Positions 11,137-23,731 of a stretch of DNA of 39,309 nucleotides are shown here, piece by piece. The translations under genes and the position numbers were made by a program. Source of the stretch: a virus; IMG/VR virus record IMGVR_UViG_3300025698_000016, positions 1 to 39,309 of that record; one strand, given 5' to 3'. Under the pieces are notes generated by a model. The model searched no databases and was not told the DNA's origin. It saw only the letters and a program-made list of their open reading frames with translations. Position 1 is the stretch's first letter. Each line of letters begins with the position of its first letter.

Positions 11137-12435
11137 TTACTTACCTCCCGCTAAGTCGCCTGTGTTGGACCCGACCTCCTCCCCTATCATACGGGCGAGT
11201 TCTTTCCACTCGGACCTCGACATATTCGAGAAATCCCCGTTCGACCCGTCCACGGAGACACTTACGTTCTGTTCCTGAACGTTCGTCCCGGGCTGTTCTC
11301 CGGGGCGGGCGGTCTGTCGGGACCCTCCGATAGTGTCGGGGGCGAACCGGTCGAGACGGGCGCGGGCGGTTTCCGTCGCGGACCGTAACTGTCGGTTCCC
11401 ACGGTTCCGGACCCGGGCCATACGGGAGGACATACTCTCGTTCTGGACGGTCCCCGCGCCCACGTCCAGCGGGTTCCGACCTCCGAGGGAGACGCGCCCG
11501 ACCGGATCTATGGAGACTTTCGGGATCTTATTCACCATCTGGATAAGGGAGTTCAGCCCGCCGCTGGCGGAGTTAATCGCCCCCTCTATCCCTCCGATTA
11601 TGGAGTTCGCTATGTCGTTCACTATCCCCTGTGAGAACGTGAGGATCCCGTTCCATCCCGCCCTCCATACGTAGTCCGCCGCCTCGACCGCCGCCCCTAT
11701 CCCGGTCTTTACGGCTATCCCGAACGCCTGAAATCCGAGTATGGCTTTCGACGTGAACCGGGTAGCCGCTTTCGCCCACTCGACGGACGTATTCACGAAC
11801 TTGTTTTTAGCCGCGGTCCAGTCCCCGGTAAGCGCGGAGAACGCCGCGGACATATACCCGACGAGAGGACCCCCGACGAGAAACGCGAGATCCGCGAACG
11901 TCGAGGTCATAGTATCGGTTTCGGACTGGACGACCGGGGTTACGTCCGTGAGTCCGAGGAGTTCAGATCCGAGGAGTCCGACCCCGACTACGGCTAAGAA
12001 CAGCCCCGCCGCTAACCCCGCGGGTCCGGCGATAGCCGCCCACGCGGTCGTAGCCGCCCCGGAGACGGTTCCCAAAGCCCCGGAGAGGGTGATACTCGAC
12101 CCGGTGAGGAGGGCGGTCCCCCTCGTCGCCAAGGCTAACGCGCCCTCGTAGAGGGTGGTAGCGACTCCCGCGACGCCGAACATATCCGCCGCAAAGAACA
12201 GCGCGGATCCGAGGAGTCCGGTCGAGGAGTCGAGTTTCGAGGTCCAGCGGTTCGCCTCCTCCGTCCGTTTCGTGTTTTCCTCGACCTGTCCCCCGTAGTC
12301 GTTCTGTGCGGACGCCGCCCCGACCGCGGACTCCGCGACTCCCTCTAAGTTATCCTGTAGACCGGAGGCTGTGTCCGCCGCGTCGTCGCCTCCCTTAACG
12401 GACGCTACCCAAAAGACCTCCCCGAGTTTTACCAT
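11137..12435 (-). CDS. Tail tape measure protein (short)
   Basis: This 432-residue protein has long Ala/Gly-rich hydrophobic stretches at about 75-165 and 180-200 (AAIAGPAGLAAGLFLAVVGV). A helical central part with Gly-rich segments (IANSIIGGIEGAINSASGG) follows, and then a basic C-terminal third. These are tape-measure features, and its place after the chaperone frameshift genes confirms the call. Tape measure length sets tail length, and 432 residues is short, suggesting a tail of only some 60-70 nm if the usual helix relation holds. The ATG overlaps the previous stop (TAATG). Confidence 0.85.
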   Translation of the reverse strand: MVKLGEVFWVASVKGGDDAADTASGLQDNLEGVAESAVGAASAQNDYGGQVEENTKRTEEANRWTSKLDSSTGLLGSALFFAADMFGVAGVATTLYEGALALATRGTALLTGSSITLSGALGTVSGAATTAWAAIAGPAGLAAGLFLAVVGVGLLGSELLGLTDVTPVVQSETDTMTSTFADLAFLVGGPLVGYMSAAFSALTGDWTAAKNKFVNTSVEWAKAATRFTSKAILGFQAFGIAVKTGIGAAVEAADYVWRAGWNGILTFSQGIVNDIANSIIGGIEGAINSASGGLNSLIQMVNKIPKVSIDPVGRVSLGGRNPLDVGAGTVQNESMSSRMARVRNRGNRQLRSATETARARLDRFAPDTIGGSRQTARPGEQPGTNVQEQNVSVSVDGSNGDFSNMSRSEWKELARMIGEEVGSNTGDLAGGK

Positions 12436-12941
12436 TAGAACCGCCTCCCGGACATAGCGGAACGGGCGTTCTGTCGCCCCTCCGCTTTCTTACGGGCCTT
12501 TTCCCGTTCCTCCGTTTCCATCTTTTGAAGTTCGTTCGACATAACGAGGTAGCGCATTAGTTTCTGTTCAGGTAGACCTCCTCTCGTTACCTTATGAGTC
12601 TTAGTTACGGAGTCGGGGGCGTCGAGGTCCCGGATCTGTTCTATCCCGACCGCCGCGGCTACGGCTACCGCGAGAGGCGTCCACAGCCCCGTCTCTACGA
12701 GGGCGATAACTCCGAGGGTGATTGTACCTACGGACATAGCCCGGACTGTCGTGGGCGACAGGCGGGCGAGAGACGCCGCTGTGTCGTGTCTCTCCTCCTC
12801 GACGGTATGGACCTCACTCGTCGGGGCTACCGCGTCCAGCGGGACGCCCTCTTTCAGGAGGAGGAGTTCCACGAACTCCCGACTCCACGGGATAGCCCGG
12901 GGATCCTCGACCTCTTTCCCCCGGACTATCCTTCTAACTTT
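12435..12941 (-). CDS. Tail assembly chaperone, -1 frameshift extension (T-type)
   Basis: This frame has no credible start of its own (a GTG at 12872 lacks a convincing ribosome-binding site). It is open upstream through the end of the chaperone gene and meets the heptamer G GGA AAG at 12938-12944. A -1 slip there would join chaperone residues 1-177 to 167 more residues, a 344-residue G-T type fusion. The sequence right after the slip (KEVEDPRAIPWSREFVELL) looks truly coding, though it lies before the GTG. The extension has a hydrophobic hairpin (about 45-78 of the GTG form) and a basic C terminus (EREKARKKAEGRQ). In lambda the equivalent product helps assemble the tail around the tape measure. 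Confidence 0.75.
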   Translation of the reverse strand, partial: KVRRIVRGKEVEDPRAIPWSREFVELLLLKEGVPLDAVAPTSEVHTVEEERHDTAASLARLSPTTVRAMSVGTITLGVIALVETGLWTPLAVAVAAAVGIEQIRDLDAPDSVTKTHKVTRGGLPEQKLMRYLVMSNELQKMETEEREKARKKAEGRQNARSAMSGRRF

Positions 12942-13468
12942 CCCTCGTCGCCCTCCGCTACGCCGGACTGTTCCTTAAGCCACGCCCGGAAATGTTCCAC
13001 GTCCGCGTCCCACGAACCCGCGTCCGACTCCGCGTAGGTTTCGAGAACGTCGAGGACGCCCTCCGTGATACCCTCCTCTCCCATATCCATAGGGTCGGGG
13101 ACGTGTTCCTCCAACTTTGAGAGGAGATCTTTCGAGGCGTTTTCCGTCGCCCACTCTTTCACCGTCTTATGGTCCGGGAGGAAACTCGTCTCCTGAACCT
13201 GATAGTCGAACATACGGGAGTAGTAGTCCACAAAGTCGAACCCTCCCTTACTCTCCGCCGCGACGGACTGAACGATCCGCTGTTTCTTAGGCCAGCTAAC
13301 GTTTTCCGCCGGGATTAGAACGAACCCGAACGCCTTTTCTTTCCGTTCGCCCGTCTCGGAGTCCTCGACGGTGAGGCGGATCCACTCCTCGACCGTCTCC
13401 GTCTCGTCTACTGTCGCGTCCGAGTAGGACCCGGTTTCTACGTCCTCCGGCGTCTCCTGAAATGGCAT
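12926..13468 (-). CDS. Tail assembly chaperone (G-type)
   Basis: This 180-residue acidic helical protein lies between the tail tube and tape-measure genes, the standard chaperone position. Its last codons hold the slippery sequence G GGA AAG, three codons before the TAG stop, which matches the lambda G/G-T arrangement. The N-terminal part has paired strands (IRLTVEDSETGERKEKAFGF). The middle is helical with aromatic residues (FDFVDYYSRMFDYQV), as in other tail chaperones. Most ribosomes should end here, and a minority should shift into the downstream frame. The promoter upstream is of the GTTAG class. Confidence 0.75.
   Translation of the reverse strand: MPFQETPEDVETGSYSDATVDETETVEEWIRLTVEDSETGERKEKAFGFVLIPAENVSWPKKQRIVQSVAAESKGGFDFVDYYSRMFDYQVQETSFLPDHKTVKEWATENASKDLLSKLEEHVPDPMDMGEEGITEGVLDVLETYAESDAGSWDADVEHFRAWLKEQSGVAEGDEGKLEG
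12938..12944 (-). promoter_or_regulatory. Programmed -1 frameshift slippery site
   Basis: The minus strand reads GGGAAAG, phased in the chaperone frame as G GGA AAG. This is an X XXY YYZ heptamer and the same one used by lambda gene G. The shifted codons GGG AAA lead into a frame that stays open to the tape-measure start. A second GGGAAAG nearby (about 12914-12920) lies after the stop and is not in the right phase to matter. Confidence 0.75.
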
Positions 13469-13537: not shown

Positions 13538-14557
13538 TCAGGCGAGATAACCCTGTGTCGAGCTGGAGTCCTCGAACGTAACGGTGAGGCTTTCGGGAAC
13601 GATATTCATTTCTACCTGTAGAGTGTCGTCCTCCGCCCCCTCCCCGCGGGGCGTCGCGTGTCCGGCGTCCGTGAGGTTATTCCCGGTGAGGGAGAACTCC
13701 ACAGCGTCCCCGTTCGCTTTCGAGAACTTCATAGACGCGTCCACGCCGCCCGCGGTCGGGTTCTGTAGTTCGTCGTAGAAAGTGCTATCCACGACCGTAA
13801 CCGTAGCCGTGAACTCATACCCGACCTGTCCCCCGTAAAGGATCTCGTAGGGGTCCGGGGCGCGGGTGGACTCTATGTAGTGTCGGGCGGAGGAGTTCTG
13901 ATTAATGGAGATAGTGAACTCCTCTAACCGGGCGACGGTCGTCCCGTCGAACGTGAACCCGCTGGACAGATCCGAGAACAGCCACGGGTTCCGGTCCGGC
14001 ATACCCGGGTCCGAGGTCGGGCTACTCCCCCTCTGGACGCCGATAGCGATAGTGTCCAGCGTCGTAGTGAGGCGTCCCTCGTTATCTAACGAGATCTCCC
14101 CGGAGGTCGGGACGACCGTGTTAAACGTCCGTACAAAGTCGGACGCCCCGCCCCGTCCGAGGTGAGTAGCCTCGACCGTGAGGGACGGAGGGACCGGCGT
14201 CGCGGACCCCGCGGACGCCCCCGCCGCGGTAAGGACGTGTTCGTTCGTCCCGGCGGAGGGCGTGTCCGCGGTGAACGTCTCGGATCCGAGGAGGACCGCG
14301 AGAGGGTAGCCGTCGTATGGGATAACCGGGTAGGACCCGCCCTCGTAGACCTTTTGACCCTCCGTTTTCGCGTTCATTTCTCGACCCGTCCCGATTAGGA
14401 ACTCCTCGTTCCACGAAACCTCCGGGTCCGGGTGTTCCGTCTCCTCCTCTATCTTTCCGAGGTGTCTCGTCGGGGTTACGGTCGTCCGCTGTTCGTCCTG
14501 TAGCCCGACGAGGATCCGGGAGTCGTGTCCTTTCTGTGGGGAACCGCTGATACTCAT
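13538..14557 (-). CDS. Major tail tube protein
   Basis: This 339-residue beta-rich protein lies between the neck proteins and the tail chaperones. The pattern fits a tail tube protein with extra domains. There is an N-terminal tube-like part (residues about 15-110), a middle part with ARLEEFTISINQN (about 209-221) and paired strands (YEFTATVTVVDS), and a C-terminal strand set (MKFSKANGDAVEFSLTGNN, then LTVTFEDSS). Tail tube proteins polymerise into the hollow tail shaft. At 339 residues it is longer than simple tube proteins, so surface insertions are likely. It has its own strong promoter, in keeping with high expression. Confidence 0.75.
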   Translation of the reverse strand: MSISGSPQKGHDSRILVGLQDEQRTTVTPTRHLGKIEEETEHPDPEVSWNEEFLIGTGREMNAKTEGQKVYEGGSYPVIPYDGYPLAVLLGSETFTADTPSAGTNEHVLTAAGASAGSATPVPPSLTVEATHLGRGGASDFVRTFNTVVPTSGEISLDNEGRLTTTLDTIAIGVQRGSSPTSDPGMPDRNPWLFSDLSSGFTFDGTTVARLEEFTISINQNSSARHYIESTRAPDPYEILYGGQVGYEFTATVTVVDSTFYDELQNPTAGGVDASMKFSKANGDAVEFSLTGNNLTDAGHATPRGEGAEDDTLQVEMNIVPESLTVTFEDSSSTQGYLA

Positions 14558-21280: not shown

Positions 21281-23731
21281 TTACATAGCCCCCTCTATCC
21301 ACCGTCGGAACGTATGTCTCTCGTTAATGTGAACGGTATGGTCCCGGAACTCTAACTCCGGGAAATACTTACCGTGAACGTCTCTCTCCGCCCGTTTGAG
21401 TTCAGGCATAGTTAGCGGATCTCCTCCCTCTCCTCGACGCGGGTCCGTCCGGTCCTTTAGTTCCTCACAGGCGTCCGTCGTCCGGGAGTCGTCCGGTCCC
21501 GTCCAGATATACCGGAGGGTAGCCGCGTCGTCGCGTTCCTCGTAGCCTTTCTCCCGGGCTGTGTTCAGAACGGAACTCGTCTCCGTCCGGGCGACGACCT
21601 CCGCCTCCTCTTTCGAGACGTTCGGAAACGTCTCCTGTATGTCGTCGCGGATCTCTCCGAGACTCCACCCGCTACCTCCGTCCTCCGTGAGGTTTTCGAG
21701 GAGAACGTCCTCTAAGCGGTCTTTCGCCTGTGTGAGTTCGTCGGACAGGGACTCTATCCCGTCGAACACAGCCCCGTCCTTAATCGCCTCCCGGATCTTA
21801 TCCACTACGTAGTCCGGGAGCTCCGAGGGGCTGAACGAGGCTTTTTCTATCGCCTCTATGGACTCCGGGTAGATCTGTTCCTTATGGGTGCGGAACAGAA
21901 CCTCGTCTACCGTCTCGACCTCCTCTTTCGAGAGGGTAGCCTTACTCTCGCGCCCCCGGATCCCGTTTCCCGAACCACCACTCTTAGACTGTTCCGTGGG
22001 TCCGTCCACGACCCGGAGGTAAACGTCCTCGTAGGAGTTCAGCGTCCCCCGGATAGTCGCCTCGTCCAGTCCGTGAACCGCTAATACGGGGTCGTGGGGG
22101 TCCGGGAGGTCCGGCGGATAGACCCTCTCGTTCCCGTTCCGCCGCCCTTTCGAGTCCACGACTTTCTCCGCGCCTAAGTCGAGGAGGCGGTTCAGGAACC
22201 CGGTCCACTCGGAGTCGTCTCCGTGGGCGACGCCCCCGGGCGGGAACGCGAGAACGACCGCGTTCCGGTTCTTTCGCGTCTCGACCGCCTCGACCGTCTC
22301 CCTGTCGAGGTTCCGTCCGTCCACGGAGGCGAACAGTCCGCCTCCCTCTCCGCCTCCGCTGGACGCGTTCCCCGCCTCCATTTCCCCGTCCTCTATCACC
22401 GGCATACCGTCGCGCCAACTTACGGAGAGTCCAGCGTCCGCCGCCTCTTTCCCCGCTTTGATGGACTCCTGTAGGGCGGAGGCTTTGGACTGTCGTTCCG
22501 AGGTCGTCGTCTCTTTCTCGAACTCGAAACGGAGGTCCGCCCCTATGTCCAGTTTCAGATCCGGGACGACTCCGAGGGTAAGCGCCTGTTCGAGGCGGTC
22601 TACGAGAACCCGAAAGCCCCGCTGTTTGTAAGCCTCCTGTTGACTCTCGTCCGTCGCCCGGTTCGTGTTCTCAAAGTCGAACCCGGCGTAGGAGGGGTTC
22701 ACTTTGAACACGCCTCCGAGTTCCGTTACCTTAGTGTGGTAGCGGTCGAGGAGTTGGAGTTCCTGATAGTTCGGGGAGAGGGCTGTGTATTCCACCGGGA
22801 ACTTAGTATAGGCTAACCTGTGTCGTTCGCCCTCGTTTAGCCGCATATCGTCTTTGAAGTTCGCCCAGTCCGCGGAGTCTATCGGGATCTCCGTGTCCGG
22901 CGGACGGGAAACGATACCCGGGGGCATACCCTGAATAAGGTCCAGTATCTCTTTCTCCGCTATCTCCTCTAAGACCTCTATGGAGTCCTGTCCTTTCTCG
23001 ACGGGACCCTCTCCGTAGGGCGTGTTCCCTCGTCGCGCCCACGAAACCCATACGACCTCCTCCTCCTCGAACGGGATCCCCTCGAACTCGTCCTTACCCG
23101 CGGACGAGGACTCCCTCACGAATTGAACGTAGCCCTCCGTAAACCCGCGGTCGTCCAGTCGTTTGAACATAGTCGCGGAGTCTACGTGGACTATCTCCCC
23201 GACCGGGTTCGACGTGTTCCCGCCCGGGTAGTGCTTTACCACGGTCCCGTCTCCGAGGCGGAGGAGGGTCCGGGACCACTCCTCTAAGAACTCCGAAAAG
23301 GTGGAGTCCGGGACGAGATCCCGGAGTTTCCGTTCCGCCTGTGCGATAGTCGAAGGATCCACGTCCGCCTCCTCGTCGTTCGGGACGAGACGCCAATTAG
23401 CGGAGGCGGCGTCCTGTGCTAAGGTGTCTACGTAGGTCTGTGGAACCGTCCCCGTCGAGAGATCCCGGAGGAGTTCGGGGTCGTAGGGTTTCGGGGCGGC
23501 GTCCTCACCGTCCAGCGCGTCCTCTAACGCTGTGGGGAGTGTCGCCTTTCGGTCCACGTTCTGTTTCTGGACCGCCCTCCCGGATCCGTCGAGGCGTTTC
23601 TCTAACGCCCTCGTCGCCTCCATTTTCTCCGAGAGAGAAAGTTCCTCCCCGGGACGCCGCGACGGTCGTCCCTCGTCCCGTTCGTCGGGAACTCCCGCGA
23701 CGCCGGACAGGAGAGTATCAAAAGTTCCCAT
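21281..23731 (-). CDS. Portal protein fused to MuF-type head protein
   Basis: This 816-residue protein is longer than a usual portal (about 400-550). Residues about 80-440 look like the portal core: a clip/stem part with KEILDLIQGMPPGIV and the long wing helices (YHTKVTELGGVFKVNPSYAG, then FRVLVDRLEQALTLGVVPD). Residues about 605-816 match a MuF-like head morphogenesis domain (VVARTETSSVLNTAREKGYE at 712-731, then YIWTGPDDSRTTDACEEL at 741-758, and a C-terminal HTVHINERHTFRRWI with histidines). A segment at about 465-580 (AVVLAFPPGGVAHGDD, then DPVLAVHGLDEATIRG) is of unknown fold. The portal forms the DNA gate, and MuF proteins often carry cargo or minor head functions. It has its own promoter. 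Confidence 0.8.
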   Translation of the reverse strand: MGTFDTLLSGVAGVPDERDEGRPSRRPGEELSLSEKMEATRALEKRLDGSGRAVQKQNVDRKATLPTALEDALDGEDAAPKPYDPELLRDLSTGTVPQTYVDTLAQDAASANWRLVPNDEEADVDPSTIAQAERKLRDLVPDSTFSEFLEEWSRTLLRLGDGTVVKHYPGGNTSNPVGEIVHVDSATMFKRLDDRGFTEGYVQFVRESSSAGKDEFEGIPFEEEEVVWVSWARRGNTPYGEGPVEKGQDSIEVLEEIAEKEILDLIQGMPPGIVSRPPDTEIPIDSADWANFKDDMRLNEGERHRLAYTKFPVEYTALSPNYQELQLLDRYHTKVTELGGVFKVNPSYAGFDFENTNRATDESQQEAYKQRGFRVLVDRLEQALTLGVVPDLKLDIGADLRFEFEKETTTSERQSKASALQESIKAGKEAADAGLSVSWRDGMPVIEDGEMEAGNASSGGGEGGGLFASVDGRNLDRETVEAVETRKNRNAVVLAFPPGGVAHGDDSEWTGFLNRLLDLGAEKVVDSKGRRNGNERVYPPDLPDPHDPVLAVHGLDEATIRGTLNSYEDVYLRVVDGPTEQSKSGGSGNGIRGRESKATLSKEEVETVDEVLFRTHKEQIYPESIEAIEKASFSPSELPDYVVDKIREAIKDGAVFDGIESLSDELTQAKDRLEDVLLENLTEDGGSGWSLGEIRDDIQETFPNVSKEEAEVVARTETSSVLNTAREKGYEERDDAATLRYIWTGPDDSRTTDACEELKDRTDPRRGEGGDPLTMPELKRAERDVHGKYFPELEFRDHTVHINERHTFRRWIEGAM

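Follow-up and report, generated by a model that had tools for sequence, protein, structure and literature searches.

The window analysed here, 39,309 nt in length, covers positions 1 to 39,309 of the IMG/VR virus record IMGVR_UViG_3300025698_000016 and carries a tail module on its minus strand. A tail tube protein gene (13538..14557; PF18906 Phage_tube_2, E 2.1e-22) lies upstream of two overlapping chaperone ORFs, which are followed by a 432-aa tape measure protein gene (11137..12435; PHROG 1068 tail length tape measure, E 1.8e-8). The first chaperone ORF (12926..13468) starts with ATG and encodes, in the zero frame, a G-like tail assembly chaperone of 180 aa, assigned from the ORF itself, a weak profile match and its relatives. 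The second (12435..12944) is a T-like extension in the -1 frame (GKVRRIVRG...), assigned by its profile match and by the joined tail assembly chaperone of the halovirus HCTV-2. No stop codon interrupts the -1 frame from 12974 to 12435 (179 codons), and the TAA that ends it overlaps the tape-measure ATG at 12435 (TAATG). Both frames line up, in order, with PHROG 25860, a haloviral tail assembly chaperone family whose members are fused (322 profile positions): the G half matches positions 45-153 weakly (E 1e-4) and the T half matches positions 158-313 (E 2.3e-19), so that the two frames, taken together, correspond to one fused protein.

Other searches with the two halves gave little further information. 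A tblastn search of phage records with the G part returned no match, and solved structures searched with a T profile yielded weak matches only (best E 0.046). AlphaFold models were of low confidence (T, pLDDT 67 and pTM 0.33; G, pLDDT 47). Within the T domain, 12645-12734 on the minus strand encodes a hydrophobic helical hairpin of membrane-like appearance (SVGTITLGVIALVETGLWTPLAVAVAAAVG). A similar hydrophobic stretch is found in T of the HCTV-2 type and is not seen in the shorter T of HCTV-5.

Probable slip site and its conservation

On the minus strand, the 180-aa chaperone gene ends in ...GAG GGC GAC GAG GGA AAG TTA GAA GGA TAG. It includes the slippery heptamer G GGA AAG (12938..12944), which has the X XXY YYZ phase in the zero frame and is separated by three sense codons from the TAG stop (12926-12928). 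A -1 slip at this point gives the reading GK|VRRIVRGKEVED..., with the junction GK|VRR. The preliminary description had reported the heptamer in the correct phase three codons before the stop, the GK|VRR junction, and a -1 frame open from before the slip to the tape-measure start; all three are borne out by the minus-strand sequence. The same heptamer is the slip site of phage lambda gene G. A second GGGAAAG (12914-12920, minus strand), on the loop side of a predicted hairpin, cannot serve as the slip site of the first ORF, since it lies past the zero-frame stop and within the T frame.

The heptamer by itself is suggestive but modest evidence and is not decisive. The bare string GGGAAAG is not rare in the window (7 found, 7.2 expected). 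Few heptamers in the reading phase have the form X XXA AAN or X XXT TTN: the minus-strand genes hold 4 in 8102 codon positions, and one of these four is that of the present overlap, at most 6 codons from the end of its gene. The probability of an in-phase slippery heptamer in a random stretch of about 16-17 codons is 0.018. When the exact protein is held fixed and codon usage is applied, the probability rises to 0.22 for the final 16 codons, because there are few possible spellings of EGK. What makes the case for a frameshift convincing is the conservation of the slip site across relatives, not the heptamer alone.

Relatives were collected from IMG/VR and comprised six contigs in which the gene is identical, together with five divergent loci: L029 (78% identity to the window in G), L018 and L020 (59-61% in G), L019 (45% in T), and L027, an HCTV-2-like locus. 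A tape-measure query retrieved near-identical contigs only, and scanning genome contigs with the T alignment revealed no related provirus. The slip site reads GGGAAAC in L029, GGGAAAA followed immediately by TAG in L018, L019 and L020, and AAAAAAC followed by TGA in L027 and HCTV-2, in each case in the same phase as in the window. A gapless 126-nt alignment of the window with L018, L019, L020 and L029 showed that GGGAAA is invariant and that only the last base varies (G, C or A). The two-frame arrangement together with a slip site is kept in these four loci, in L027 and in the isolates HCTV-2, HCTV-5 and HVTV-1. Homology in the T frame resumes right after the slip in L018, L019, L020, L029, HCTV-2 and HCTV-5, as seen in GKVRRIVRGKEVED of the window and GKVRAAIRGRNVDD of HCTV-5. 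Pairwise differences among L018, L019 and L020 over T codons 2-59 were 11/5/13, 13/9/24 and 16/11/18 at codon positions 1/2/3, and the minimum at second positions is as expected for a translated protein.

Alternative accounts of the two frames

The arrangement could also be read as two separate proteins made without a frameshift, namely the 180-aa product and a 145-aa product started at the GTG at 12872. Such a 145-aa ORF exists, the GTG is the first possible T-frame start after the slip in the window (codon 24, counting the slip GGG as 0), and a GGAG stands 3 nt ahead of it, although this spacing is short. The 22 codons between the slip and the GTG, however, encode conserved protein, and the GTG itself is replaced by GTC or CTC in L018, L019, L020 and L029. 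In these four loci the T frame lacks ATG, GTG and TTG for 47-74 codons, the earliest such codon after the slip being codon 47 in L029, 74 in L018, 61 in L019 and 74 in L020, and the T residues ahead of these codons are conserved among relatives. Internal initiation at ATG, GTG or TTG therefore cannot account for T; the comparative data argue strongly against its independent initiation, and the reading as two separate proteins is very improbable. The preliminary description had placed the GTG accurately, and its view that the -1 frame encodes plausible protein ahead of any start codon agrees with the conservation of T from the slip onward.

A fused product would also arise if the archaeal RNA polymerase slipped instead of the ribosome, and such slippage could be favoured by the run of six A in some relatives (AAAAAAC in HCTV-2). 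The window has only GGG AAA, which is not a homopolymer run, and its close relatives all keep the X XXY YYZ pattern of tRNA re-pairing with a variable last base, so that transcriptional slippage is, if anything, slightly less probable still. The least credible account, with nothing specific in its favour, is that the chaperone is really a single ORF and that the frame change reflects gene decay or an error in sequencing. It is already contradicted by the identical sequence in six other contigs and by the two-frame arrangement kept in divergent relatives and isolate genomes.

The tail chaperone of the window thus very probably uses a programmed -1 frameshift of the lambda G/G-T type, as originally proposed. 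The gene order, the homology in the T frame and the slip site with its phase all agree with this reading.

Predicted RNA elements around the slip site

Folding placed a putative 3' stimulatory hairpin of 13 bp at 12890..12931 on the minus strand, 6 nt past the heptamer, with 12931-12919 paired with 12902-12890 (-24.5 kcal/mol). A matching stem occurs in L029 (-28.4 kcal/mol). The two stems rank in the lowest 0.9% (window) and 0.5% (L029) of 48-nt segments of their own sources, and both are stronger than the protein requires (synonymous-codon shuffles; P = 0.0085 for the window and 0.0045 for L029). The dinucleotide z-score is just -1.8 in the window versus -3.75 in L029, and the two sources are related, so their hairpins are not independent cases. 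By folding, such a stem is absent from L018, L019, L020, HCTV-2 and HCTV-5. Since the stem is present in the window and L029 only, a downstream hairpin was rejected as a feature of the family in general. That the predicted hairpin truly stimulates slippage of archaeal ribosomes from the 3' side in the clade of the window and L029, with a stop directly after the heptamer in its place in L018-L020, is a tentative reading that we consider somewhat less probable than its opposite. If it holds, haloarchaeal viruses that are closely related would differ in how they set the G:G-T ratio, with two means in use.

On the 5' side, a Shine-Dalgarno-like GGAGGGC (12950..12956, minus strand), 5 nt upstream of the heptamer, is a weak candidate for a 5' stimulator. 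Its GAGGGC portion is invariant in five close loci, but it also encodes the conserved residues EG.

Related haloviruses and the proposed mechanism

Judged by its portal and tail proteins, the window virus is nearest to the isolates HCTV-2 and HHTV-2 (about 41% identity). Both are members of the Saparoviridae that infect Haloarcula, which supports a haloarchaeal host for the window virus. HCTV-2 (KC292028, genes 40/41) carries an annotated -1 join, and its T shares 33% identity with that of the window (E 7e-7). Unlike the window, it has the slip site A AAA AAC with TGA directly after it. HCTV-5 (KC292027, genes 128/129) and HVTV-1 (KC117377, genes 129/130) are more distant but share the identical G GGA AAG in the zero-frame phase, which we checked directly in both. 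They also have the short zero-frame tail after the heptamer, the homologous T extension (GKVRAAIRGRNVDD) and the order tail tube, chaperone, tape measure. In HCTV-5 the T domain is shorter than in the window (124 codons, counted from the slip), and no strong hairpin lies downstream.

Joined coding sequences are annotated in the records of HCTV-2, HCTV-5 and HVTV-1, and -1 frameshifting tail chaperones of HCTV-1, -2, -5 and HVTV-1 have been described (PMC5009743), with the list of such haloviruses repeated in PMC8211752. The present case thus adds to a known mechanism, for which the identical slip sequence has already been published in relatives. For a different virus, Hardycor1 (HrrHc1_110/115), a -1 site of the same type has been published, G GGA AAT (PMC7911831). 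In the HF1 group a +1 shift would be required instead (PMC7230728). The published accounts consulted treat frameshifting in these haloviruses as likely, not as experimentally shown, and no peptide or reporter data were found for the window virus or for related viruses of haloarchaea. Phage lambda G/G-T shares the position upstream of the tape measure gene and the two-product logic (PMC5009743); its host is bacterial, and the tblastn search with the G part of the window matched no phage record.

Genes 47/48 of HHTV-2 (L043; KC292024.1, 29000-33400, near locus positions 2050-2080) are annotated as separate hypothetical proteins. T-like protein (GKLRAAVRRSKIEDP) is nevertheless encoded in the -1 frame ahead of the start annotated for gene 48, and the junction reads G GAA AAC TGA, which is not a standard heptamer. 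A frameshift at this junction may therefore be unannotated or unusual, and the missing standard heptamer in so close a relative counts against the frameshift reading of the window.

What the data show directly is the sequence, its phase and conservation, the homology, the gene order and a strong predicted hairpin in two loci. From these we infer the slip, its minority share, any help from the hairpin and the chaperone action, as follows. Most ribosomes would complete the 180-aa G protein. A minority, arriving at G GGA AAG with the P site occupied by tRNA-Gly and the A site by tRNA-Lys, would slip back by one base, from GGA to GGG and from AAG to AAA, perhaps aided in this clade by the 13-bp hairpin 6 nt downstream. 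The slipped ribosomes would continue in the -1 frame to give a fusion protein, G-T, of about 344 aa. On the lambda model, the two products would then coat the tape-measure protein in a set ratio and recruit the tail-tube protein.

An uncultivated clade of haloarchaeal viruses thereby joins the viruses for which a frameshift in the tail chaperone is predicted. Its natural set of slip sites (GGGAAAG, GGGAAAC and GGGAAAA), with and without a hairpin, offers material for testing whether bacterial slip rules hold for archaeal ribosomes.

The portal gene of the window (21281-23731, minus strand; 816 aa) also resembles those of the nearest isolates: the 200 residues at its C terminus match head morphogenesis proteins of the Mu gpF-like kind. 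This apparent portal-MuF fusion is shared with HCTV-2 and HHTV-2, and MuF is a separate gene in HCTV-5.
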